A stretch of 35,296 nt of DNA. Origin: Lachnospiraceae bacterium UBA3802. Its GTDB lineage: Bacteria > Bacillota > Clostridia > Lachnospirales > Lachnospiraceae. The position numbers and the translations under genes were made by a program. Positions 41 to 11,521 of this stretch are shown piece by piece (positions within the stretch are counted from its first letter, which is position 1; each line of letters starts with the position of its first letter). The stretch is taken from contig DFEM01000017.1 in the NCBI GenBank assembly GCA_002369155.1, positions 1 to 35,296 of the forward strand, read 5' to 3'. Under the pieces are notes generated by a model. It was not told the origin of the DNA, ran no database searches, and worked only from the letters and a program-made list of their open reading frames with translations.

Positions 41-71
41 AAAAACCGAATCTTAAAGGATTCGGTTTTTT
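41..71 (+). terminator. Rho-independent terminator at left edge
   Basis: A 7-bp stem (46-52 with 59-65) closes a 6-nt loop and is followed by six T (66-71). Five A residues ahead of the stem could pair with the T-run, so it may work in both directions. It would end a plus-strand gene lying before the window. Its loop and right arm contain the 13-bp sequence found again at 10654-10666, so the hairpin may have been the target, or been remade, when the mobile element entered. Confidence 0.8.
52..64 (+). repeat. Left copy of 13-bp direct repeat (candidate att core)
   Basis: CTTAAAGGATTCG here is identical to 10654-10666. It lies in the loop and right arm of the left-edge terminator. Because the surrounding sequence is nearly palindromic (CGAATC-TTAAAGGATTCG), the two ends also match in inverted orientation with one gap and one mismatch. 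Palindromic cores of this kind suit tyrosine recombinases, but the role is inference. Confidence 0.5.
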
Positions 72-250
72 GGTTACCCAAACGTACCAAAACTCTTGAG
101 TTTAGGCGGTATTTCATAACATTAGAGAATTGATGGAAAAATTATAGTCAAAACTGATGGTCATAAATGGCATAATCATAACAGTTAAAGTATTGAATAT
201 AAAGGCAAAATTCAGTATGCATAAATAGTAATTATAAATATCTAAATAAT
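72..250. other. AT-rich left-end non-coding region with palindromes
   Basis: No convincing gene is seen between the left-edge terminator and the terminator of the XRE-HNH gene. Two features stand out. A near-palindrome at 87-106 has arms CCaAAACTC and GAGTTTaGG around TT. A smaller inverted repeat at 72-88 has arms GGTtAC and GTACC around CCAAAC. The stretch ACGTACCAAAAC (82-93) resembles the 3' half of the array repeat at 10379-10416 (GCGTACCATTAAAAAC). These could be recombinase or accessory-protein sites at the element's left end. Confidence 0.4.
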
Positions 251-288
251 AAAAAAGGCTTTGTGTACTTGTTTAGTACATAAAGCCT
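250..288 (-). terminator. Terminator of the XRE-HNH gene
   Basis: A 13-bp stem (256-268 with 276-288, one G-T pair) with a 7-nt loop is followed, on the minus strand, by six T (250-255). It lies just downstream of the minus-strand gene ending at 313. Confidence 0.88.
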
Positions 289-312
289 AGTTTTTGTTTT
301 CTCGAACTAAAT

Positions 313-855
313 TTAATTATGATTTTCTGCCACACTAATAAGCTTTTGAATATCTTCCTTTTCGGGTGCATATTCTAATTTTGCATGGCAATTTGGGCAT
401 AGGGCCACGGCATTATTAATCAGTTTAGAATTAACAATGGCGTATTTTTGAAGATAAAAGACCTCAAGGTAAGGGTTTCCAGAAAAATCATCAAATGGTG
501 CCGGTTCTCCACATAATTCGCACTTTCCGTCAGCATTTTTTTTGATTTTATTTTCAAGTTCGGCAAATTGTGATGAAGCATAGGCCAACATTCGATTAGA
601 ATAGTCGATAATTGGAATTTTTTGAGTTTCGATAGTAGATGAACCTACTTGATAGTCTACATTTTGAGAAGCATCCGATGAAATGAGGTCATCAATAGTA
701 ACATCTAAAGCATTAGCAATTAGTTTAATTTTACTGATTGGAGGATCAATAAGTCCATTTTCATAACGTGACAACATTGATTCAGGAATATTTACCATAC
801 CAGATAAAACTTTAAGACTATATCCCTTAGCCTGGCGAAATTTTTTTATATTCAT
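313..855 (-). CDS. XRE-family regulator with C-terminal HNH-like zinc domain
   Basis: The 180-aa protein has an N-terminal XRE/Cro-type helix-turn-helix (about residues 1-60). An acidic linker follows, then an HNH-like zinc domain with cysteine pairs C112/C115 and C153/C156 and the final H157. In active HNH nucleases the stretch before the second pair carries a catalytic His (LEVHH-type). Here it reads LEVFYL (130-135), so the nuclease may be dead and the fold kept for DNA or protein binding. Start: GAGGG lies five bases before the ATG on the minus strand. The gene diverges from the recombinase operon, and the intergenic region holds two similar 15-bp operator-like sequences. It is therefore probably the element's own repressor. 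The role as regulator is inferred. Confidence 0.85.
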   Translation of the reverse strand: MNIKKFRQAKGYSLKVLSGMVNIPESMLSRYENGLIDPPISKIKLIANALDVTIDDLISSDASQNVDYQVGSSTIETQKIPIIDYSNRMLAYASSQFAELENKIKKNADGKCELCGEPAPFDDFSGNPYLEVFYLQKYAIVNSKLINNAVALCPNCHAKLEYAPEKEDIQKLISVAENHN

Positions 856-930
856 TTTTCCCTCGAAATAGCGTAAATAAAAGGTTTTTATACATCAAAC
901 GTAACACATTTTTCGTATGCATGCAATTTC

Positions 931-1000
931 TTTCGCTAAACGAAAATAAAAAAGTTATTGACAATTACGTAATATATAATTAAAATTTCGTTAAACGCAA
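931..1000 (+). promoter_or_regulatory. Promoter of the recombinase-cas operon with paired operators
   Basis: A near-consensus promoter is visible: -35 TTGACA (958-963), 17-bp spacer, -10 TAAAAT (981-986). Two related 15-bp sites bracket it: TTTCGCTAAACGAAA (931-945, arms TTTCG/CGAAA) upstream of the -35, and TTTCGTTAAACGCAA (986-1000) starting at the last base of the -10. Partial copies (TTTTCG near 910, ACGAAATA near 1013) lie further out. This arrangement fits cooperative repression by the divergent XRE protein. Confidence 0.75.
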
Positions 1001-1057
1001 TAAAATTACATATACGAAATAAAATTGCAAAAATGAAAAAGGACAATTATAAAGAAA

Positions 1058-2344
1058 ATGTATGAGGCTTATACAATTTTTTTAAATGGAACGAAAAGAA
1101 AGCTTATTGCATATAGACCATATCAAGTAAAAGAATTGGTTAGGTTTTCTGTTGCCAATCGATATTTGAAAATAAGAGAAAGTGGAAATACAGGTTTGAC
1201 TTATTCTGCCAGGGATTATGTATTTGCAGTAATTAGATTTTTAAACTATTGCATGGATCAATTGGGATTAGAGGATCTTGAAAACGATTTACCTAATATA
1301 ACATTTCAAATGGCCCAGGATTATATAACTGATTATTGTCGAAAGCCAAAGACCAATAATGGAGAATATCGCGGCAAACAAGCCAGGTTGAATGAAGTAA
1401 AACTAATTACCCGATATTTAATTAATATCAAGAGTATCAATCCAAATCTTGCTGAATGCTGGCTCAAAGAGAAAAATGATGACAATGGAAAAACAAAATA
1501 TCAAATAAAACCGATTTTGACATCGTCTGTTCCCAGTAAAGAAGTTAACAGAGACTGTGAAGATTGGTTTGCACAATTATTTCTGGACTATGCCTATAAA
1601 GAGGACATTAGAGTTTGGTTTATAGCGTTAATACAGTATTATACCGGTCTTCGCCCCAGCGAGGTTCTAAACTTAAGACACCCAAACTCGATATATGGCC
1701 CAAGCATAATATATTCGGTTGATTTAAGCGGAAATATTATGGATGTAGGGATAGATTTATCAAAAGAAGCATGGGAAAGACCTTTGCGTGATGATGGTGT
1801 AATTAATGGAAGAGTAAAAAAACCAAGAAATGCAATAATTTCTTATAAATCACATGAAATAATCATTGATGCATATTTGTTGATTTTAGGCCTTACAAGG
1901 GATAAAGAAAGACAGGATTACGGTCCTCTAATAATAAATAATTATAAAAACAAAAAAACCGGGAAATATATGGCATATACCTATGACAGCTATAGAATAG
2001 CCTTTCATAAAATAGTTGAAAACTATGTGTTTCCAAAACTTAGGGAGCAGGGTGGAAAATATGAAGCATATGTAAATCGTTTTGCGGGAAAAGACTATGG
2101 ACCGCATATGTTTAGGCATGGATTTAGTTGTAGATTCGTAGAAGAAGGAAGCGAAGACTGGGCAACATTAATGGCATTAAGAGGCGATAAAAGTCCGGAA
2201 TCTGCTGTTACTTATGTAGTTAAGGGCGGCGCATTCAAGCATATAACACAAAGATTGGCCAATTTGACCGGCGAAGAAATGTTAGGGGATAAAAAAAATG
2301 GAAGAAAAAATGGTGATATTGGAACATTGCCATTTAACCTTTGA
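1058..2344 (+). CDS. Tyrosine recombinase/integrase, first of the module (TnpA-like)
   Basis: This 428-aa protein is a phage-integrase-type tyrosine recombinase. The box I arginine is R199 in TGLRPSEVL, a likely catalytic-hairpin lysine lies near K254-K264, box II is HMFRH (H350, R353), and the nucleophile is most likely Y386. The usual LGH of the third motif reads LRGD (374-377), so the box III His/Trp seems replaced. The N-terminal 150 residues look like a SAM-like core-binding domain. Start: the ATG at 1058 has only a weak ribosome site. A 10-codon leader ORF (1033-1065, MKKDNYKENV) with no better site overlaps the start and could couple translation. It is the first gene of the operon and overlaps the next by 47 bp. 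In Tn554-like elements such proteins cut and rejoin the transposon ends. Confidence 0.9.
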   Translation: MYEAYTIFLNGTKRKLIAYRPYQVKELVRFSVANRYLKIRESGNTGLTYSARDYVFAVIRFLNYCMDQLGLEDLENDLPNITFQMAQDYITDYCRKPKTNNGEYRGKQARLNEVKLITRYLINIKSINPNLAECWLKEKNDDNGKTKYQIKPILTSSVPSKEVNRDCEDWFAQLFLDYAYKEDIRVWFIALIQYYTGLRPSEVLNLRHPNSIYGPSIIYSVDLSGNIMDVGIDLSKEAWERPLRDDGVINGRVKKPRNAIISYKSHEIIIDAYLLILGLTRDKERQDYGPLIINNYKNKKTGKYMAYTYDSYRIAFHKIVENYVFPKLREQGGKYEAYVNRFAGKDYGPHMFRHGFSCRFVEEGSEDWATLMALRGDKSPESAVTYVVKGGAFKHITQRLANLTGEEMLGDKKNGRKNGDIGTLPFNL

Positions 2345-4724
2345 AAAGAAAATAGATATTTTGGAAAAAGAGGCAAAGGATTGTTATAAAGTATCTAATA
2401 ATCAAAGAGTTTATATAAAGGAATCATTAAAAAAAGAAATAGAACAAATACGTAAAGAAGCAACACCAATAAGCGAAATTCTTTCGAATGAAGATAAACA
2501 GGTAGTCAAAAGAACAATAAAACAACTTGAGAAAGAAGGAAAAATTTTTGAAAACAGACTAATGCCACTGGTGCAGGGGAAGTCAGTTAAAACAGAAGAT
2601 ATAAAAAGAGTATACGAAATTGCTGAGGAGTTAAAAAAAGATAATGATGGTAGATATAAGTCTGTACATTCATTATCAAAGATATATAAAGTTCCACAGT
2701 ATAAAATAAATAACGCTGTTAGTTTTAACCGTCTAAATCAAAATTCTGAAGGTAGAATATCTCAGTTTGAATTTGAAAATCTCTATTGCGAAGATCAGAA
2801 AAAAGTCTCTTTAGAAGCCGTATTAGATAAGCTTGGTAAGAAAAACAAGTGGGTATATAGTACCGGTTTTATAAAAAGAATAAAGGATGGAGTACGGGGA
2901 AAAAGTATAAAAGGTGAATATGTTCCCGCTGCTATAACTTTAAACACAGATAAAGCCAATACTTTCTATATGGCGGATGATGAATTCGAGATTGAAAAAT
3001 ATATAAATAATCATTTCGAAAACATGCCTATAGAGAATTATGGATATTTATGGTCTCGTTTGGATGAAAAAACGAAAAATATACTGTGGTATGCGCTAGG
3101 AATAACGCCTTACGAAATTAACGCCGAACTTCAGCCCGCCCTTCATCAGGTAATGTCAATTCTTCTTAAGAGTGGAAAATGCTTTGAGGATTGGCAAGCA
3201 GGTGAAGTCCAGTTATACCTTCCTGATCTTTCGGAAAAAGCAATAAATCTCTTTAGAAGGATGGATGATTACACTAAAGAAGTAAGAGCGGGAAGGAAAA
3301 TAATTAATTCCAGGATGCTACAAAGCGGGAAAGATGAAAGAAAATATACCGAGTGGCAATATATGAATCTTGGAAAAGCATTGTTTGATGAGGAATATAT
3401 ATTTGCATCAAACATGGTTGAAAGGGCAATTGAAGATTCAAAAGTGGCCCAGGCACTCTTGTATATGGCAATGAACATTATAGCAGCTTGGAGAAATATA
3501 GATATTTGTAGAATATACTTAGGCTTTACAATTCCTGAGATTCAAAGCACTGTTGATGAGATAAAAAAATCAAAGAAAGTGCAAGAAAACTTATCAAAAA
3601 TCTATTTAAATTTTTCAATAACATATACTGAAGCGGTGCGCGCCTCAAAAAATAAAGGTGAGTTGGTATTTGCGTGTCCTATTCAGTTTTATTGTGTAAT
3701 GGGAATGTACTTAACAATTGCTGAATACCATAGACTTAACGAAAATAGGGAAACTCTTTTATGCAGAAAAGACTTTCACAAAATCAATATATATGAAGAT
3801 GCATTAGGCGAAGAAGTATATAAAAAACTATTCAATGATGAATTATTCAGTAATCGTCAGATTAATAAATCAATGCTTCAACATTACGTCGATATGGCAA
3901 AAAAATTATATAAGAATATTAAAATAAAAAGTCTGCCTGAGTTTTTAGGTTCGTATTTAAGAGGTCATAAGATGGATTATAAAAGAGGCCCTAAGAGTAT
4001 TTTTCATTACATTAACCTATCAACAGATGACCTGAATTTTGATGAAATCACCTTATCGTTATGGCTTATAGGTACTTTGGGATTATATAAGAGTAAAGTG
4101 GCAAGAATTATATGTGATTTTCTTGACGAAAATAGGGATTGGGAAATAACAGAAACTGCGGAATTAATCAGTAGATTAAACATAGATCCGCTGGTGATGG
4201 AAAAAAAGATAGATATACTTAAAACAACCAACAATCAAATAAAGAATTTGGAAAGATTACCTCAAAACAACGAAGAACTGATTAATAAAGAAAAGTTTAT
4301 TCAAGCGTTACTATTAGGAGTAGGAGAAAGAAAAGAAAAGAACGTTTTTTGCCTATTCAATGTTATTCACGGAAATGGAGAACATGAATGTAAAGGTCAA
4401 AAATATTGTTCCGGAGCTCCCAATGAGTATGGGGGACTGTGTCAATATGCTATTTATTCATACGAATACATATTTGAATTAATTATAAGGCGTAGGGCAT
4501 GTATAAGAAAATTGAAAGAACTAGATGAAAGCTATAATAAAGGATTGCGTTCGGAAGATATAGTAAATCAAATTAAAAGAAACGAAAGGGTTAAAGATAA
4601 CCTTGAGAATACAATTAAAAATTTCATGGGAAATTCAGAATTTCCGAAGATGCTAAGAGAAGATTTGTATCAATTATATGTGGAGAGTGAATCAAATGAT
4701 TATTCCGCTTTACCAGAAGGATAA
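2298..4724 (+). CDS. Large diverged recombinase-like protein, second of the module
   Basis: This 808-aa protein is not securely assignable. It looks like the large central member of multi-recombinase transposon modules. The stretch around 387-407 (MAMNIIAAWRNIDICRI) has the shape of the box I helix-Arg region of tyrosine recombinases (R399). YLRGHK (553-558, R555, H557) resembles a box II core. No convincing nucleophilic tyrosine follows at the usual distance, so it may be an inactive structural partner. Near the C-terminus four cysteines (C685, C698, C704, C715) probably bind zinc. The N-terminal 110 residues and the last 80 are strongly charged and helical. Start: AGGGG lies about ten bases before the ATG at 2298. 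It overlaps both neighbours, which implies coupled translation and a shared complex. Function in end binding or target choice is inference. Confidence 0.7.
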   Translation: MEEKMVILEHCHLTFEKKIDILEKEAKDCYKVSNNQRVYIKESLKKEIEQIRKEATPISEILSNEDKQVVKRTIKQLEKEGKIFENRLMPLVQGKSVKTEDIKRVYEIAEELKKDNDGRYKSVHSLSKIYKVPQYKINNAVSFNRLNQNSEGRISQFEFENLYCEDQKKVSLEAVLDKLGKKNKWVYSTGFIKRIKDGVRGKSIKGEYVPAAITLNTDKANTFYMADDEFEIEKYINNHFENMPIENYGYLWSRLDEKTKNILWYALGITPYEINAELQPALHQVMSILLKSGKCFEDWQAGEVQLYLPDLSEKAINLFRRMDDYTKEVRAGRKIINSRMLQSGKDERKYTEWQYMNLGKALFDEEYIFASNMVERAIEDSKVAQALLYMAMNIIAAWRNIDICRIYLGFTIPEIQSTVDEIKKSKKVQENLSKIYLNFSITYTEAVRASKNKGELVFACPIQFYCVMGMYLTIAEYHRLNENRETLLCRKDFHKINIYEDALGEEVYKKLFNDELFSNRQINKSMLQHYVDMAKKLYKNIKIKSLPEFLGSYLRGHKMDYKRGPKSIFHYINLSTDDLNFDEITLSLWLIGTLGLYKSKVARIICDFLDENRDWEITETAELISRLNIDPLVMEKKIDILKTTNNQIKNLERLPQNNEELINKEKFIQALLLGVGERKEKNVFCLFNVIHGNGEHECKGQKYCSGAPNEYGGLCQYAIYSYEYIFELIIRRRACIRKLKELDESYNKGLRSEDIVNQIKRNERVKDNLENTIKNFMGNSEFPKMLREDLYQLYVESESNDYSALPEG

Positions 4725-6174
4725 TACGGCGAAAAAGCAGATGATGATTAATATCAGTTTACACAAAGAGGAGGAATTCCCATTTGCTGATTATTATTCA
4801 AATCTTGTTACAGAGAAAGTAATAATTGGAAATGATTATTATGCTTCTATGTGGATTATAACAAATCAACAAGATAAGGTGACAATAAATTTTGATTCCA
4901 TAAAATATACTCCCAAAGGGCTTGAAGAAGATTACGAGGAATTCTTAAAAAGATTTCTTCTTGGAAGGATAAGACAAGAAAGATACGCCATCACGGAAGC
5001 AAGATATATAAAAAGGTTTATTGAGATTGGAAATAAAACAAAGGGCTTTGAAGTAATAAACAATATAAAACTAAATAAAGGAGAATATTATGCATTAGAA
5101 GAATTCATAGAGGAAACAAATCTTAACATTAATATTGATTTGTTTGGCGCAGAAGATGAAAAAAGTGGTGGACAAAGGGAATTGGCGGAAGGATGCCATA
5201 CATATTACGTTATTGATAAGGAATTAAAGAGTTTTTGGAAAAACGCATCTGAGGAAGAAAAGATAATATATTTCCCGTTATATATGTTTTGGATTGTATG
5301 TAATGTCATCCCTACAAGGCCGGTTGAGTTTTGTATAACCCAAAGAAATTGCGTTTACAAAAAAGGAACGCAGTATTACCTTCGATTGAAAAAAACTCCT
5401 AACAAAGGATCCCAGCAAAAAAGAATCAACAATGTAGACAAGTACCCGGAACTTGTGGTTCCGATTCTTTCAGATTTAGGAGAAGAAATACTTTGGTACA
5501 TATTTAAAACCAATAATACTCACCCCAAAGAATCAAATAGGCTATTTACAAATGATTCATATAATCTGTTATTAGGAAGAAATGTCGACAGTTTGTTTAA
5601 AGTTATAAACTTGGCAGGATTAAAGGATTCTTTTAATAAAAAGCTAGTGGATGAAAAAAACTATCAAATGGTTTTCGAAGAAAATGGTGTTACTTCATAC
5701 CAGCAAGATGAATGGATTTCAAATTGGTGCCTTGGAGATTTAAGACATTTAGCTATTTCTCATTTGATAAGAGATGTCGGAGACGTATCCCTTGCAATGA
5801 TTTATGCTGCACATTCTAACATTTCAACAACTTGTGGTTACTACAATATAAAAGAATTTGAAAATAATATGATTAATAAATTTTCTGAAGACCGAAAGGA
5901 AAAGGCAATCATATATGGGCAACATCTTGAAGAAGGTTTACCAAAGATAAATGGAGGTTTCTGTACTAATAATCTTGGTTTAGATAATGATATATGCGCA
6001 TTATACCCAACCGATTGTAGTGGCTGCAGATTCCACATAAAAGAAAGAGGAGTCGTAAAAGAAAAAACAAAAAAAGAAGAAACAGAGGAAAAATATAATC
6101 ATATGGTAAAACTAGTGTTTAAACAGGAAATAGAAGAAGCTAGGGAAGTAATGCGGGAATTGGGATTTATTTAA
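4696..6174 (+). CDS. Tyrosine recombinase with C-terminal zinc cluster (TnpB-like)
   Basis: Starting at the ATG at 4696, ten bases after GGAG, the protein has 492 aa; an upstream in-frame ATG at 4678 lacks such a site. Tyrosine recombinase motifs are clear: box I arginine R208 (IPTRPVEFC), a likely lysine at K232/K233, box II LGDLRH with R350, AAHSNIST with the box III H373, and nucleophile Y382 (Y383 adjacent). The first His of box II (HxxR) is replaced by Gly (G347). After the catalytic domain, C423, C434, C441 and C444 form a probable zinc cluster, as seen in many transposon-type integrases of the Tn554 TnpB kind. It overlaps the previous gene by 29 bp. It likely works with the first recombinase, each treating one end or strand. 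Confidence 0.88.
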   Translation: MIIPLYQKDNTAKKQMMINISLHKEEEFPFADYYSNLVTEKVIIGNDYYASMWIITNQQDKVTINFDSIKYTPKGLEEDYEEFLKRFLLGRIRQERYAITEARYIKRFIEIGNKTKGFEVINNIKLNKGEYYALEEFIEETNLNINIDLFGAEDEKSGGQRELAEGCHTYYVIDKELKSFWKNASEEEKIIYFPLYMFWIVCNVIPTRPVEFCITQRNCVYKKGTQYYLRLKKTPNKGSQQKRINNVDKYPELVVPILSDLGEEILWYIFKTNNTHPKESNRLFTNDSYNLLLGRNVDSLFKVINLAGLKDSFNKKLVDEKNYQMVFEENGVTSYQQDEWISNWCLGDLRHLAISHLIRDVGDVSLAMIYAAHSNISTTCGYYNIKEFENNMINKFSEDRKEKAIIYGQHLEEGLPKINGGFCTNNLGLDNDICALYPTDCSGCRFHIKERGVVKEKTKKEETEEKYNHMVKLVFKQEIEEAREVMRELGFI

Positions 6175-6192
6175 AGATTATCAAGGAAATAA

Positions 6193-7008
6193 ATGGGAAG
6201 AGCAAAGAAATTTACAGATAAAGAACTGAAAATGATAGCAAATGCTGCTATATATGACATTGAAGGCAAAGGGCTATTATTTAGCAAAATTGGAAATAAT
6301 CTAATCTGGGAATATGTCTGTCATCTTAAAGACATTAATAAGGATGAAGCAATAAAAAAGTTAAGAATGTCGGACCATACATACGATCAGACGCAATTAG
6401 AAGAGTTATATGAAAGGATAATAACTAAGTACGAACTAAGTGATGCATATAAAGAAGCAACACAGGAAGCATTAAATGAGCGAAAAAAACTCCAGGAAAC
6501 GTTTTTTGACAATAATCAGAGAAAAAAGGGAGTAACCAATCGCTTATATACTAGATTTAATGCGAAAAGTTTTTATGAAAAAAACAAAGAAAATATAAAG
6601 GAAGCCTTATTGGAATTGGAAAACAAGTTCAATGCATTGCTTGATACGAATTTTGAATTAAACCAAAAGATTAAAAAATTTGAAAACGAAACATATCATT
6701 CGGAATCTGTCAGTGAACTGCTTTTACAGATTGATAATCTGAAAAAAGAAAAAAAGGAAATAGCGGATGATAATATTCAACTCATAAATACGTTGAAATC
6801 CCAGGAGAATCTACTTAAATCATTAAATGAAAAAGCTGCGTTGATTGTAATTAATGACTGCAATATGGACAAGGTGCCATTAAGAGAATATGAAGCAAAA
6901 TACACTTTGGCCAAAGAGTTAACTTATCTAAAAGAGAAAATAGAAAAGGATGAAGAAGAATTCAATAGGGAGATGATTCATTTGGTGGAAAAGAATGGAG
7001 AGGAGTAG
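6193..7008 (+). CDS. Coiled-coil transposition accessory protein (TnpC-like)
   Basis: This 271-aa soluble protein starts with MGRAKKFTDKELK and a small helical domain, and then has a long heptad-rich coiled coil (roughly 135-255, many Leu/Lys/Glu). Position right after the recombinases and the overall plan (basic, DNA-binding-like N-terminus plus coiled coil) match the TnpC proteins of Tn554-family elements, which set transposition frequency and orientation preference. No catalytic motif is visible. AAGGA precedes the ATG by a normal distance. It follows the second recombinase by 18 bp and its last codons overlap the cas5 start by 14 bp, so it physically links the transposition and Cas halves of the operon. 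It could bridge the two machineries; that is speculation. Confidence 0.7.
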   Translation: MGRAKKFTDKELKMIANAAIYDIEGKGLLFSKIGNNLIWEYVCHLKDINKDEAIKKLRMSDHTYDQTQLEELYERIITKYELSDAYKEATQEALNERKKLQETFFDNNQRKKGVTNRLYTRFNAKSFYEKNKENIKEALLELENKFNALLDTNFELNQKIKKFENETYHSESVSELLLQIDNLKKEKKEIADDNIQLINTLKSQENLLKSLNEKAALIVINDCNMDKVPLREYEAKYTLAKELTYLKEKIEKDEEEFNREMIHLVEKNGEE

Positions 7009-7642
7009 TAACAATTTTTGCTTCCAAATCTCGGCACCTATGGCGATGTTTGGAACGCCGACAAGCAAATTAGGATGTGAAATGATCTCATATCCGATGC
7101 CAACGTATTCTTCCGTAATAGGTATGCTAAATGCCATATATCACAGAGACGGGTTAGAATGGGTGGTCTCGGCAGTAAGAGTCATGAATAAGGTAGAATA
7201 TCAAAGTATGACAATAAAATATCCTACATATAAGAGAAAGAAAGACAGGTTTATTTATTCGTATTTGTCGAATCCTAAATATCAGGTTCTTGCGTATTAC
7301 AAGATGGATAAAAAATATATAAATGACGAAAATGCAGATTGCTATCTTGATGCTGATGAAGAAATTGAAAAAGCTATAAGAAGAGGCGGAAACAACATTG
7401 TATTTCTCGGGAAACGACATGGGAGTATGGCTTTGGTAGAGCCATGTGAGTGGATGTCGGGAGATGGATATTACGATAATAAAGGAAAAAGTGAGCCGAT
7501 TAGAATGTTTTATAAGTTTGAATTTATCGGAAAAAGAAAGAAAAAAAGAATTAACAAAGTTGGTTTTTGCATGCAGTATATGGAAAATGGTGTCATAAAC
7601 TTTGAAAAGAGGCTTTCTCATATTTACGAGGTGAAAAGATAG
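6995..7642 (+). CDS. cas5c: Type I-C-like Cas5 (Cas5c/Cas5d family)
   Basis: This 215-aa Cas5 shows the family's ordered motifs: an N-terminal beta strand followed by ISYPMPTYSSVIGMLNAIY (31-49), VRVMN (61-65), RRGG then FLGKR (129-141), VEPCEW (148-153) and a GYYD near 158-161. In ordinary type I-C systems Cas5 replaces Cas6 and cuts the precursor crRNA using a Tyr and a Lys-His pair. Where family members have the Lys-His pair just before the arginine-glycine segment, this protein reads NADCYLD (113-119), so cleavage activity may be lost or altered. GGTGGA lies seven bases before the ATG, and the gene overlaps the TnpC-like gene. Cas8 follows after 2 bp. It should cap the 5' handle of the guide in the Cascade. 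Confidence 0.85.
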   Translation: MERSSNNFCFQISAPMAMFGTPTSKLGCEMISYPMPTYSSVIGMLNAIYHRDGLEWVVSAVRVMNKVEYQSMTIKYPTYKRKKDRFIYSYLSNPKYQVLAYYKMDKKYINDENADCYLDADEEIEKAIRRGGNNIVFLGKRHGSMALVEPCEWMSGDGYYDNKGKSEPIRMFYKFEFIGKRKKKRINKVGFCMQYMENGVINFEKRLSHIYEVKR

Positions 7643-7644
7643 CG

Positions 7645-9501
7645 ATGTTAACAGAAGTATTATCTACGTATGGCGAAAATCTTGTTAGGAACAATATCAT
7701 AGATAAAATAGCATTTACAAAAAAGCCCATAGCTATATATTTCGTACTGTCTGAAGAAGGGGAATTATTAGAAAAAATTGAGCCGGAAAAACTTTTATTT
7801 GAATATATTCCTGTTTCATTTTTTGGAAATAGTTTTTCTACCGCTAGAGTATCTGAAAACGACATAGTATTTCCTCTGTTTGAACAGATTAGTACTTTTT
7901 GTAGGCCGGAAAGAAAAGAACTGTATTTCAAAGAAATAAAGAAATTTCGTGAAGAGATAAACGACGAAAAGATAAGTGTAATTAGCAATTTTATCCTGAA
8001 TTACGACTGGGATAAAGATGTTACTAATTGGACTGCAAAGCAAAGCAAATTTGTGTATGTGTATTTAAAAAAACGAGGTGAAACTGTTTCTATTACAGAG
8101 GATTCCGAATTAGTCAAAAAAATAAACAAATGGCTCCTGGACAAAATAACATCGGACTCAGGTGAAGTTGATTTATTGGGACGTGAATTGTCACACGATA
8201 TTAGAAAACATAGTACTATAAAATTAGACGGCCCGATACAACCTAGGCTTATTTCAGAAAAGGCTTATAAAGAAAAATATTATTGGGAAGAGAAAAGGGA
8301 TGGAAAAGTATGTGTTATATCTCCTAAAACAGAATTATATTTTGATTTGGGAATAAAATATTTACAAGATAAGGCATCAACCCAAATACATGGAAGATAT
8401 TATTCATTAAATGATATTAATAGTGATTTTTATGTTCCGTTGTATTTTAATATGTCAAATTTTGCAAGAAGATATGGGTTTGAGGTTGAAGAAAAAAAGG
8501 ATTGGGACGAATTTAAAGAGTGGTTTCTAAATAAAAGCAAAAATGTGAAATTGATGTATGTAGAATTTGATAATTTTAATCAAGGAAGAATAAGCCAATA
8601 TCAAGTTTACAAATATAACGAAATAGAGTCAGAGGAAAAAATACTGAACATTATAAAGTATATAGAAAAAACGACAGTATTTCGTAAGGGAGAAATTGCA
8701 TTTTCCCTTCAAAGAACAATCAAAGAAGTAATTGATCGGAAACATGGATATCAAAGAGGTAATAACGAAGGATTGTATTCCGGCGACGCTAAATCGAATA
8801 TTAATTTTAATCAGGAATATTCAAAATTTATTCGCGCGGTGCTTGAAGGAAATTATGAAAGAATCGCCACAGAATATGTTCTTCCAGATTTGGCTCAAAA
8901 GATAAAGGCTGAAGAAAAAGAAGAGATAAAAAAAGATATTTATTTTATGGCAGCGTTGAATCAAAAAGAATTAAATAATCAAAATATAAGAAATAGTATT
9001 GATTATATGTTTGGAGAATTGCTTGCATCGTTTCATATGTATGAGATGTATTCAAGAAATAAAAACAGCAGAAATTATGATGAACTGACTTATGTACAAA
9101 AAAAGATTACTTCACTAAAGGCAAATCCATATAGGGCATTAATTATATTAGAAGACGTGCGACGAAGATACAGGGATCGTGACAGTAAGAGGCAAGACTA
9201 TTTTGAAAAAAGAATTGTAAGAACGAAAAATGAATTGCTGGCTTTAGGATTAAATAGCAACACAAAATGTCTTACCAATGAAGTTTTTGTAGGATTCGAA
9301 AATGTTTTAAATAATGAGTATCTGAAACATAGGGAGCCGGATGATGTTGTCTATTATTTATCTAAAATAGTAGATAAGAATATAATTCAAGTAGAGCTAT
9401 TATCAGAAGACAAAAAAGAGGATTTTTCGCCAGATTCAAAAATCGGGTACAGGGTGATAATACAAGAATATGTAGAGAAAAAGGAGAATAGTGATGCTTA
9501 A
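7645..9501 (+). CDS. cas8c: Type I-C-like Cas8 (Cas8c/Csd1 family)
   Basis: The 618-aa protein occupies the Cas8c slot between Cas5 and Cas7 and has the size and layout of Csd1. The N-terminal strands read PIAIYFVLSEEGELL (near 29-43), echoing the Csd1 opening. A middle region is rich in aromatic and charged residues. The helical C-terminus contains a YMFGELLASF segment (about 453-462), comparable to the YLLGRLFA-type helix of the family. Similarity is distant, so the class call rests partly on neighbours. In Cascade, Cas8 reads the PAM and contacts target DNA. In canonical I-C the small subunit Cas11 is made from an internal start in cas8; I could not pick out a clear internal ribosome site here. 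GAGGTG precedes the ATG. It overlaps cas7 by 8 bp. Confidence 0.75.
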   Translation: MLTEVLSTYGENLVRNNIIDKIAFTKKPIAIYFVLSEEGELLEKIEPEKLLFEYIPVSFFGNSFSTARVSENDIVFPLFEQISTFCRPERKELYFKEIKKFREEINDEKISVISNFILNYDWDKDVTNWTAKQSKFVYVYLKKRGETVSITEDSELVKKINKWLLDKITSDSGEVDLLGRELSHDIRKHSTIKLDGPIQPRLISEKAYKEKYYWEEKRDGKVCVISPKTELYFDLGIKYLQDKASTQIHGRYYSLNDINSDFYVPLYFNMSNFARRYGFEVEEKKDWDEFKEWFLNKSKNVKLMYVEFDNFNQGRISQYQVYKYNEIESEEKILNIIKYIEKTTVFRKGEIAFSLQRTIKEVIDRKHGYQRGNNEGLYSGDAKSNINFNQEYSKFIRAVLEGNYERIATEYVLPDLAQKIKAEEKEEIKKDIYFMAALNQKELNNQNIRNSIDYMFGELLASFHMYEMYSRNKNSRNYDELTYVQKKITSLKANPYRALIILEDVRRRYRDRDSKRQDYFEKRIVRTKNELLALGLNSNTKCLTNEVFVGFENVLNNEYLKHREPDDVVYYLSKIVDKNIIQVELLSEDKKEDFSPDSKIGYRVIIQEYVEKKENSDA

Positions 9502-10309
9502 ATATAATTACAGATATGTTTTGTTGTTTGATGCAATCAATTGTAATCCTAATGGAGATGCGAGCTTTGGTGAACCTAGAGTAAGAGATATTGATGACAG
9601 GGGATTAATTACAGAATGGTGTATCAAATATAAAATTAGAAAGGTGTTTTTTGAAGAAGGAGAAAAAGTACTTCATTTTCAAAGGGATGAAGATTATACG
9701 GTATTCGGAGAGATTGATGCATATAATAAAACAAATGAGAAAGCCAAAGAGGATGAATTGGATTATATCGATACAAGGCTATTCGGTTCGCTTGATGCTG
9801 CCAGTCGACTTAAGGATTCCAGAGCAATAAAACTTATGGGTGCTTTTTCAATTGATCATGCGATGACAATCGATCCAATTATTATAAAAGAACTGGCGAT
9901 AAACAGGGATTTTAAAGTTGATGTGGATGAAAAAGGAAATAACAAAGGAAGAAAAAATGATAATAAATTCCCAATAGTAGAATATGGATTATATTTAAGT
10001 AAAGGAGGTATAAATAAAAAAAGAGGGACCCAAATGAATGTGTCGGATCAAGATGTGGAATTGCTTTTTGAAGCAATGTTAAGTATGTTTGAAGGAGATT
10101 ATTGTTCAACTCGACCAATGGGTTCAATGAACATAAGGAAACTGATTGTATGGAAAAGTGAAGAAAGCCTTCCATCGCCAACAAAACTTATGGAAAGTAT
10201 TGTTATATCTAAATCTGAAGGAGTGGGAATTCCATCAATGTATTCAGATTATAAGATAACAATAAACAGTGATATACCTTACAAAGAATATGTTATGTTG
10301 AATACATAA
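9494..10309 (+). CDS. cas7c: Type I-C-like Cas7 (Cas7c/Csd2 family)
   Basis: The 271-aa protein is a clear Csd2-type Cas7 backbone subunit. It opens with NYRYVLLFDAINCNPNGD, whose NPNGD motif is a family signature. It continues with VRDIDDRG and CIKYKIRK, then RLFGS, GAFSIDHAMTIDP and, near the C-terminus, STRPMGSMNIRKL. These match the strand-and-thumb order of Cas7c. Multiple copies coat the guide RNA. The ATG at 9494 has AAGGAG at good spacing; the GTG one codon earlier is too close. It is the last gene of the operon, and no cas3, cas4, cas1 or cas2 follows. The array begins 70 bp downstream, so the guide region may be on the same transcript. Confidence 0.9.
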   Translation: MLKYNYRYVLLFDAINCNPNGDASFGEPRVRDIDDRGLITEWCIKYKIRKVFFEEGEKVLHFQRDEDYTVFGEIDAYNKTNEKAKEDELDYIDTRLFGSLDAASRLKDSRAIKLMGAFSIDHAMTIDPIIIKELAINRDFKVDVDEKGNNKGRKNDNKFPIVEYGLYLSKGGINKKRGTQMNVSDQDVELLFEAMLSMFEGDYCSTRPMGSMNIRKLIVWKSEESLPSPTKLMESIVISKSEGVGIPSMYSDYKITINSDIPYKEYVMLNT

Positions 10310-10340
10310 ACTAATAATATGAAATATCAAGAATATTAGT
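10310..10340 (+). repeat. Inverted repeat just after cas7
   Basis: ACTAATA (10310-10316) pairs with TATTAGT (10334-10340). The right arm also forms part of a longer 13-bp inverted repeat: 10329-10341 is the exact reverse complement of 10693-10705. The local hairpin lacks a T-run, so it is not a clear terminator, and read-through into the array is plausible. Confidence 0.4.
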
Positions 10341-10378
10341 CTGGAATATGTCATTTTACATGCCTATTATTGTTTGAG

Positions 10379-10595
10379 GTTTTAGATGTATGTAATAAAG
10401 GCGTACCATTAAAAACGTTTTTGGTTTCCTTCCGCAGTTCTAATATGTAAAATAGCATATCATTATAATTCACAAAGCATCATTTCTTCTTCACAAACCA
10501 GTTTTAGAGGAATGTAAATAGCATATTATTAAAAACAAAGTTCGTAGGCTGCTCTAACTACGCTCAGAAAGCATGTAAAAGCATACCATAAAAAC
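10379..10595 (+). CRISPR. Short degenerate CRISPR-like array (four repeats)
   Basis: Four related units are seen at 10379-10416, 10437-10471, 10501-10536 and 10562-10595. Two start GTTTTAGA and three end in AAAAAC. All share a centre of the type ATGTAAA(A/T)AGCATA. Each centre has ATG and CAT arms around a short loop (ATATG/CATAT in the second), like the small hairpin of CRISPR repeats. Intervening sequences are unique: 10417-10436 (20 nt), 10472-10500 (29 nt) and 10537-10561 (25 nt). A fifth, weak unit sharing GTAATAAAG with the first may lie at 10620-10653. Starts are 58, 64 and 61 bp apart. Repeats differ from each other far more than in an active adapted array and do not look like normal I-C repeats. 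Alternative: subterminal recombinase-binding repeats. Confidence 0.55.
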
Positions 10596-10653
10596 TGCAG
10601 ATAATCCGAAAGATCCAGGATGATAGACTAGGTAATAAAGTAATCTTTTAATC

Positions 10654-10666
10654 CTTAAAGGATTCG
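10654..10666 (+). repeat. Right copy of 13-bp direct repeat (candidate att core)
   Basis: CTTAAAGGATTCG is identical to 52-64 and lies in a palindrome, AATCCTTAAAGGATT (10650-10664). It sits about 60 bp after the last clear array repeat and 96 bp before the FHA-type reading frame. Sequence between 10667 and 10710 is AT-rich with no gene. Confidence 0.5.
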
Positions 10667-10708
10667 TATAATAACAAAAAAATAATTAGAAGGACTAATA
10701 TTCTTATT

Positions 10709-10738
10709 AAAAAGGGGAGCATAAAGCTCCCCTTTATA
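10709..10738. terminator. Strong bidirectional terminator
   Basis: A perfect 10-bp stem AAAGGGGAGC/GCTCCCCTTT (10711-10720 with 10726-10735) encloses a 5-nt loop and has A-rich and T-rich flanks. It closes transcription from the element's operon and array, or is an original chromosomal terminator. It sits only 27 bp before the FHA-type reading frame. Confidence 0.8.
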
Positions 10739-10762
10739 GATTCAAATATAAAAAATTATAAA

Positions 10763-11521
10763 ATGAATAAAAATAAATTTTCTGTCTATTCTGAAAATAT
10801 TTTTAGTTTTTTAAATTTTCGGACTTCAATAATTGCGGAATACCTTCTTGAGCATATAGACAACGGGAATCAAAGTGTCGTCAAAACAACGTATGAGCTT
10901 TACCGAAGAGCAAAGGAAGGCAGCATCGATGCCGAGAATCTTTATGAACTTTTGCAAAGCGAGGAAGAGGAAGAACAAAGCAGGAATGAAAATGAAGTCG
11001 TAAAAGAATCCGCCGATCCGGCAGAAAAAACAAACTTCAAAGAAATCAAAAAAAATAAAACAAAACTTGAGCAGACAATAGACAAACTCTTTTATTTAAT
11101 GAAAAAGAAAAACAATGAAAGAGAAAAAACGCAAGAACCGCTTTTTAATCATGAAGAAATGTTTAATGTAACGGAAGCGAAAGAGGAAAGGTATGCAGTA
11201 GGCGAAACAGTGATACTCAGTCTGCCCGAAGGAAATTCAAGAAGACTTATCAGCAGGGATCAGAACATAGAGGATGCCCGACTTGAAGATTTTCCCTGTG
11301 TTTTGGGTTCAAAATCCGACTGCGTGGATATCCTTTTGCGCGATAAATCCGTATCGCGCATGCATGCTCAGATAGATGAGGCGGAAGGAAAGCTTTACAT
11401 TTATGATCTGAATTCGACCAATGGGACCTATATCAACGGAATCAAGGTGGTTTCGGGGGAGAACGAGATTAAAGAAGGCGATGAAATAAGGCTTGGAAAC
11501 CTTCGTTTTGTACTCGCATAA
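10763..11521 (+). CDS. DUF6382-FHA domain protein, apparently 5'-truncated
   Basis: The C-terminal 90 residues form an FHA phosphothreonine-binding domain (SRMHAQI, YDLNSTNGTYING, GDEIRLGNLRF). The middle is a charged linker. The first 65 residues resemble only the end of a DUF6382 domain (the IIAEYLLEHID and YELYRRAKEGS helices), which in Lachnospiraceae FHA proteins is normally about 170 residues long. The ATG at 10763 has no ribosome site and follows a strong terminator by 27 bp. The same frame is open upstream without a stop to 10652, that is, to the right 13-bp repeat. The 5' part is therefore missing, probably through the insertion or a later deletion, and the gene may be dead. Intact relatives are often tied to Tad/Flp pilus loci. 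Confidence 0.75.
   Translation: MNKNKFSVYSENIFSFLNFRTSIIAEYLLEHIDNGNQSVVKTTYELYRRAKEGSIDAENLYELLQSEEEEEQSRNENEVVKESADPAEKTNFKEIKKNKTKLEQTIDKLFYLMKKKNNEREKTQEPLFNHEEMFNVTEAKEERYAVGETVILSLPEGNSRRLISRDQNIEDARLEDFPCVLGSKSDCVDILLRDKSVSRMHAQIDEAEGKLYIYDLNSTNGTYINGIKVVSGENEIKEGDEIRLGNLRFVLA

Follow-up and report, generated by a model that had tools for sequence, protein, structure and literature searches.

The contig DFEM01000017.1 of Lachnospiraceae bacterium UBA3802, 35,296 nucleotides long and analysed whole (hereafter the window; contig C79 of a draft genome of 2.28 Mb in 193 contigs, 80.7% complete), carries a mobile element in which four genes, termed A to D and including two tyrosine recombinases, are followed by cas5, cas8 and cas7 and by a short array of clustered regularly interspaced short palindromic repeats (CRISPR). 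Insertion of this element is probably RNA-guided, the cas5-8-7 genes and the array serving as a target selector that steers the recombinases into a host gene of the DUF6382-FHA type. With marginally less assurance, the element is also likely to be an RNA-guided transposon mobilised by tyrosine recombination, the first of its kind, in which the protein selector of a widespread four-gene module has given way to a type I-C Cascade and a homing CRISPR RNA (crRNA) targets a conserved FHA gene. The proposal of RNA-guided insertion is based on the exchange of one gene slot in the module, the interruption of the host gene, a match of the last spacer (S3) near the junction, the absence of a cas3 core above cut-off and the intact catalytic residues of A and C. 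Coordinates are collected in Table 1.

The A-B-C-D genes constitute a module that is widespread in Firmicutes, and whose layout is familiar although the literature searches gave no name for it. A pattern scan of named genomes yielded 51 module loci, many of them in streptococci and Lachnospiraceae; the counts given here refer to 55 distinct loci (numbered with the prefix L), second copies (L030, L032, L044, L045, L046, L047) being left out and the matches in L036, L042, L149 and L151 being unannotated. These 55 loci are not independent, near-identical streptococcal loci and same-genome pairs remaining among them. The position occupied by cas5-8-7 in the window, immediately downstream of D, holds a gene for a DUF4379-type zinc-finger protein in 46 of the 55 (scored within 600 bp after D by a profile of seven such proteins), and Pfam scans of three such fifth genes gave 2, 13 and 18 DUF4379 (PF14311) stretches. 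The remaining loci comprise four with another or no clear gene (L049, L069, L083, L099), four without a recognised D and one with too little sequence. Profiles of Cas5, Cas7 and Cas8 made from the window matched none of the 55, and the window cas5 begins inside the end of D, that is, in the DUF4379 slot. An earlier reading of this DNA (the sequence-only reading) had proposed that the Cascade could direct insertion, and had asked whether recombinase and cas genes always co-occur. They do not: homologous modules without cas genes, a result which that reading had named as refuting, were obtained in all 55 loci; since 46 of them carry another gene in a single slot, this is the pattern expected of an exchangeable target selector, and the cas-free relatives are not read as refuting the proposal. 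The idea of a directing Cascade has thereby gained a slot that is occupied by another gene in cas-free relatives, and a spacer match 35 bp from the junction; that the guide sets the insertion is inferred. With B as query, matches were obtained in four of 299 genomes of the family and one of 31 of the genus, and B alignments as query gave ten of 392 genomes of the order and three of 398 of the phylum (one a fragment with stops), the window's own genome being included each time; as a single-sequence query against genome contigs, B returned no close relative.

The occupants of the slot vary among the relatives. The DUF4379-type proteins after D are of very different lengths, with a varying number of zinc fingers, and a XerS-like gene lies at most 2.5 kb downstream in 19 of the 46 DUF4379 loci; the DUF4379-type gene may encode a protein that selects a target site near xerS. 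The A-B-C-D element of L049 (genome G513, about 4.0-15.8 kb), which has no DUF4379 or Cas5/7/8 match, splits recQ (identified by eye) at DEAHCVSQ|WGHDFRP, its ends resembling short imperfect inverted repeats, CTATATACAAAG and CCTTGTATAG. In Pseudobutyrivibrio sp. OR37 (L099, 14134-17271), D is followed in this slot by proteins of 581 and 462 aa, the latter bearing an IS21/Mu-like transposase C-domain (PF22483); they may constitute a further type of selector. The two other elements whose B measures about 810 aa, L098 and L099/L047, adjoin tad/Flp-pilus-type genes (by eye) and a DUF6382-FHA gene, as the window element does, the DUF6382 match of L098 being below its gathering score.

On its right side, the element ends within the DUF6382-FHA gene. 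Genus relatives have a longer gene, of which the window keeps only about the last two thirds. An intact 359-aa protein from public assemblies, P0006, representing a cluster of 43 sequences at 90%, runs through the junction without a break and, where the two overlap, shows 100% identity with the window protein; comparison of the two sequences therefore indicates that the element interrupts the host gene at Ala132. The source of the intact gene very probably belongs to the same species as the host of the window, in whose own genome only the 3′ part, and no 5′ half, of the FHA gene was found. The right end at 10666 assigned by the sequence-only reading proved wrong, as the stretch 10667-10834 likewise does not belong to the host gene and homology to that gene begins at 10835, placing the junction at about 10834/10835. 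Copies of the 12-mer TTAAAGGATTCG, which occurs on the + strand only at 53-64 and 10655-10666, each inside a palindrome, seem to have been what set 52-10666 as ends. No terminal inverted copy of the right end was found above chance (104 of 200 shuffles were equally good).

The array consists of four degenerate units of 26-29 nt, whose 3′ halves score 17.2-19.2 bits as against 11.3 bits for the next best place in the window, and S3 lies between the two repeats with the worst folding. In reverse orientation, S3 matches the interrupted gene at 21 of 32 positions, no better place being found within 24.4 kb of host DNA; the sequence-only reading had advised comparing the spacers with the DNA next to the insertion, and this partial match is the outcome. 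Relatives of the host gene were available from 29 genus loci, 24 of them with an alignment across the junction (L025, L026, L028, L117 and L118 are without; the genus genome G299 gave no match). A set of ten genus loci, 4.3-5.7 kb in length, has a gene at least 36% identical to P0006, and when S3 is compared with each complete locus its best site falls, in nine of the ten, at one shared place, +35 on the reverse strand when counted from the junction codon (+38 when counted from a codon earlier). The top match, 25 of 32, is found in L022 of a sister species. The best sites of S1, S2 and S4, the latter being the sequence after repeat 4, are shared by at most one, two and three of the ten loci, respectively. 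Among 5000 shuffles of S3 the maximum was seven of ten loci sharing a best site, none reaching eight, and among 600 further shuffles and 600 random host 32-mers it was five; a single shuffle in 5000 obtained 25 matches somewhere. Translated in the gene's frame, the S3 reverse complement gives LSVVRAAYEL, where the host has QSVVKTTYEL and L022 has QSVVRTTYEL; the score against the host form is reached anywhere in P0006 by 8 of 1000 shuffles. Mismatches to the host affect 7 of 11 third codon positions versus 4 of the 21 other positions (p 0.02), and four of the seven mismatches to L022 are likewise on third positions by simple count. For type I-F3 CRISPR-associated transposons (CASTs), mismatch tolerance has been explained by wobble variation in attachment (att) genes (PMC11406308).

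In the sense of the spacer, the protospacer starts at 10901 and has its far end at 10870, the junction lying 35 bp past that end; the flanking bases are TTCGGT in the host and TCCGGT in L022. CASTs insert on the side distal to the protospacer adjacent motif (PAM), at a short fixed distance, and I-F3 CASTs carry att-site guides, which the placement of S3 as the last spacer resembles. The arrangement of S3 and junction is that of CAST homing, but with tyrosine recombinases. For the other spacers, neither the last 20 letters of S1 nor the first 26 letters of S2 had an exact match in IMG/VR. S4 was rejected as a second guide: 3 of 24 loci have its best match at the insertion point, with at most 20 of 32 positions, and no repeat follows it. 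Translated in reverse, 10597-10628 gives SIILDLSDYL, whose loose resemblance to the host residues around the point of insertion is not above chance. Repeat units as recombinase-binding sites were likewise rejected, the four being clustered and a scan showing no further unit at the left end. An Rfam scan of 10000-11000 returned nothing above gathering scores.

The operon architecture reported by the sequence-only reading is borne out by the coordinates of the open reading frames (ORFs): seven genes, A, B, C, D, cas5, cas8c-like and cas7, all on the + strand, precede the four repeats, with overlaps of 47 bp (A/B and B/C), 14 bp (D/cas5) and 11 bp (cas8/cas7) and gaps of 18 bp (C-D) and 2 bp (cas5-cas8). 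Family assignments come from scanning the nine ORFs between 313 and 11521 with Pfam and NCBIfam. The catalytic residues R199, K254, H350, R353 and Y386 of A are invariant in 53 aligned rows, as are R214, K243, R356, H379 and Y388 of C in 57; A also has a weak NCBIfam match to Gamma-mobile-trio. The second gene, B, had been read as recombinase-like, a description not upheld by Pfam, which detects no recombinase domain in it. The predicted model of B (pLDDT 64) found no Foldseek match at E 0.001 or better, and in a tree of B the window sits on a very long branch, its placement being unsure.

Cas5 and Cas7 are assigned to type I-C on their top matches in NCBIfam, Pfam and PDB, the TIGR02589 (I-C Cas7) match of Cas7 being below its cut-off. 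Cas8 matched no Cas family in the Pfam and NCBIfam scans and is provisionally taken as a diverged Cas8c by comparison with a profile of 28 partial Csd1 proteins from other loci of the family. The hhalign scores against this profile were 42.4 for a three-row alignment and 41.6 for the single sequence, whereas the maximum among 40 shuffles was 21.6, with 21.2 for the reversed sequence and 13.5-18.4 for proteins A, B, C and D. A type I-C effector set of Cas5c, Cas8c and Cas7 is thus present in the window as judged by TIGR01876, the Csd1 profile and PF05107, and all three cas reading frames are intact.

The nine scanned ORFs contain no match to Cas1, Cas2, Cas3, Cas4 or Tn7-type genes, in agreement with the sequence-only reading. 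A cas3 of the same type elsewhere in the genome, which that reading had singled out as the completion of an ordinary I-C system, was not encountered either: the cas3 core (TIGR01587) does not score above cut-off in this genome, at 80.7% completeness, where two matches stay below it, while in control genomes it matched in 14 of 14 and exceeded the cut-off in six. At E 1e-10, 76 of 397 genomes of the family, the window's own among them, contain an I-C-like Cas7 relative (27-38% identity). A Cas4-like ORF, named by motif and in one case a 101-aa fragment, lies 3′ of Cas7 in 27 of 29 other family loci (L121 and L146 are the two without) and is not present in the window; the flanks of these 29 loci, at 1.5 kb, are too short to show what precedes cas5. 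Two further clusters of Cas8 (P0002 and P0003, 85-86% identity) are contained in a large protein set, and copies of Cas8 and B, 85-89% identical, are present in other public assemblies. Close relatives of B and of Cas8 were not found in IMG/VR, nor were those of A and of Cas8 in plasmids.

A pathway consistent with these observations can be outlined. First, the array would be transcribed with the operon and processed to crRNA. Cas5, Cas8 and Cas7 would then bind the S3 crRNA and pair with the FHA gene; without Cas3, the target would be bound rather than cut. In a further step, D and/or B would connect the bound complex to the recombinases, and A and C would join the ends of the element PAM-distally, at a set distance. 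S1 and S2 may direct the element to other targets.

Several observations weigh against RNA-guided insertion. The element is known from a single insertion whose left junction lies off the contig, and a Cas8 relative occurs in only one of 397 family genomes, the window's own, so that no second guided element is at hand. Spacer lengths are uneven (26, 39 and 34 nt), and covariation in the repeat hairpin is not above that of shuffles (244 of 500 as high). The profile match of Cas8 is weak (probability 53-56%, or 74% in global mode) and its AlphaFold model failed, with a pLDDT of 34. Catalysis by Cas5d of Bacillus halodurans reportedly involves a Lys-His pair (Nam 2012), which the alignment does not show in the window Cas5, leaving crRNA processing unexplained. 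The usual I-C PAM is TTC; the bases beside the S3 site are GGT, and TTC is not adjacent. The shared S3 site is present in 9 of the 24 aligned genus loci, those without it comprising 14 genes below 32% identity and L023, and the host copy differs from S3 at 11 of the 32 positions, two of them among the first eight bases. Finally, when all 32-mers of 10310-10760 were scanned blindly, at least 21 matches were obtained in 60 of 241 host windows of 200 bp. The host match consequently counts only because the repeats define S3, and it would be unconvincing alone, without the array and the relatives.

Among the alternatives, the one that survives best, and still an unlikely one, holds that the DNA specificity of the recombinases themselves determines the site, as in the elements termed SE and in Tn554, the Cascade and S3 merely repressing or marking the host gene. 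CRISPR-free target specificity has been reported for both SEs and Tn554 (PMC10214605), a nuclease-free Cascade would suffice for repression, and the S3 match lies in the coding region downstream of the insertion. Yet the gene is already interrupted, leaving little gain from repressing its remaining 3′ part, and the Cascade takes the place of the gene after D, into which cas5 overlaps, instead of standing among the cargo. A slightly smaller chance is given to a match that is coincidence or remnant, with the array a minimal CRISPR array in decay and the cas genes carried as passing cargo. The degenerate repeats, the uneven spacers, the host match of 21 of 32, the blind-scan result and the lack of exact IMG/VR matches for S1 and S2 all fit this explanation; the single best site in nine of ten loci, which no shuffle in 5000 equalled or approached to eight, the intact cas frames and the 85-89% identical copies of Cas8 and B in other public assemblies argue against it. 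Least credible is a role of the guide in target immunity or competition, in which the Cascade would mark or block the site once it is occupied, keeping out a second insertion or rival elements that use this locus: the occupied locus is still matched by S3, and the surroundings of L098 and L099 make rivals for the locus plausible, but the element would lack the gene that 46 of 55 relatives have after D, and the short spacing of match and junction would be given no reason.

RNA-guided insertion by the window element would work like that of CASTs. As in the Tn7-like CASTs (I-F3, I-B, I-D and V-K), a nuclease-free effector would act as selector, a spacer matches the attachment gene, and insertion would occur a short, constant distance away, distal to the PAM (PMC10293859, PMC11406308). 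In contrast to these, the window element has no TnsA/B/C or TniQ match, relies on tyrosine recombinases rather than a DDE transposase and employs a type I-C effector; it would thus constitute a co-option independent of the Tn7-like CASTs, being a member of neither the Tn7 nor the CasMu families. CasMu-I and CasMu-V likewise join a nuclease-free CRISPR effector to a non-Tn7 transposon, and in one CasMu-V the site matched by a homing spacer and the right end are 68 bp apart (PMC10910872). CasMu elements differ in their MuA-type transposase, for which the nine ORFs of the window have no match, and in their type I-A or V effectors. An incomplete I-C system described in the same work also has an I-C effector without Cas3 and has been suggested to bind DNA; its Cas8 and Cas5 are fused, and the excerpt gives no transposon association (PMC10910872).

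In its gene order the module agrees with the SEs (IntA-Tfp-IntB-Srap), which share the succession of recombinase, large protein without catalytic motif, recombinase and small protein, overlapping genes and site specificity, the four genes being called core genes (PMC10214605). SEs have been described in Gammaproteobacteria, and they end in imperfect terminal inverted repeats of 13-19 bp and form a strand-biased circle; GInt elements (GinABCD) are placed beside them here by their published description (PMC10214605). Profiles of A-D compared with the four SE proteins of pAQU1 reached at best 5.0 bits by hmmsearch and a probability of 3.3% by hhalign, so that the likeness is one of layout, not of established common descent. 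The word CRISPR is absent from the main text of the SE paper (PMC10214605). The sequence-only reading had placed the element with Tn554, which shares recombinases and a small TnpC-like protein; the layout does not support this, as Tn554 has three genes (tnpA, tnpB, tnpC) and no Tfp counterpart (PMC10214605), whereas the window has four core genes in SE order. Tsy elements are also tyrosine-recombinase transposons with a dedicated target selector that interrupt a conserved gene, comM; their selector is a protein, TnsF, rather than RNA, and their other genes differ (PMC10293859), the window insertion being in a DUF6382-FHA gene.

According to a review of 2024, co-option of CRISPR systems for transposition has always been by Tn7-related elements (PMC11406308), a range that CasMu widens from Tn7 to Mu. 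Titles and abstract beginnings returned by searches of the open-licence literature to August 2026 described no RNA-guided tyrosine-recombinase transposon, the RNA-guided insertion found there being by Tn7- or Mu-type transposases; a tyrosine-recombinase version, if true, would be an independent co-option by unrelated chemistry. It would also be a candidate system that joins DNA via a covalent enzyme-DNA intermediate instead of transposase cuts, of interest for genome engineering, and the cas-free relatives with their variable DUF4379 gene make the idea of an exchangeable selector testable outside Tn7.

Table 1. Positions of the element's genes, array and flanking features in the window.
Feature	Position	Strand	Basis or remark
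Left part of element up to contig start	1..312		contig begins at position 1
HTH (Cro/CI-type) protein, HNH-type C-terminus	313..855	-	PF01381 E 3e-13, PF01844 E 2e-5
Promoter-like site before operon	958..986	+	TTGACA-17-TAAAAT, 11/12 consensus match only
A, tyrosine recombinase, 428 aa	1058..2344	+	PF00589 E 7e-6, below gathering score
B, 808 aa, Tfp-like by position	2298..4724	+	no family above cut-off (Pfam, NCBIfam)
C, second tyrosine recombinase, 498 aa	4678..6174	+	PF00589 E 0.0024, below gathering score
D, coiled-coil protein, 271 aa, Srap/TnpC-like by position	6193..7008	+	17-26% identity to D of three relatives
Cas5 (type I-C)	6995..7642	+	TIGR01876 104 bits, cut-off 85; PDB 4f3m E 1.6e-23
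Cas8c-like (Csd1-like) large subunit, very diverged	7645..9501	+	hhalign to Csd1 profile
Cas7 (type I-C), GTG start	9491..10309	+	PF05107 E 6e-40; PDB 7kha_B E 8e-25
Repeat 1	10388..10416	+	hairpin and 10-nt tail
Spacer S1, 26 nt	10417..10442	+	between repeats 1 and 2
Repeat 2	10443..10470	+	hairpin and 10-nt tail
Spacer S2, 39 nt	10471..10509	+	between repeats 2 and 3
Repeat 3	10510..10536	+	weak hairpin
Spacer S3, 34 nt, guide-like, matches interrupted host gene	10537..10570	+	last spacer
Repeat 4, shortest copy	10571..10596	+	hairpin hardly folds
Hairpin AAAGGGGAGC-ATAAA-GCTCCCCTTT, inside element	10711..10735	+	sequence; absent from terminator scan listing
Right junction, element to host gene	10834..10835		uncertain by 1-3 bp; host-gene homology begins 10835
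3′ part of host DUF6382-FHA gene	10835..11521	+	interrupted at Ala132 of intact 359-aa protein
S3-matched site in host gene	10870..10901	-	21/32

The hairpin between the array and the right junction is, from its sequence, a possible terminator. The promoter-like site before the operon comes from a scan in which sites were rarer than in shuffles. The helix-turn-helix (HTH) protein encoded at the left, divergent from the operon, is a probable regulator, and a look-alike gene (by eye) with an HTH_3 match lies left of A in L098.

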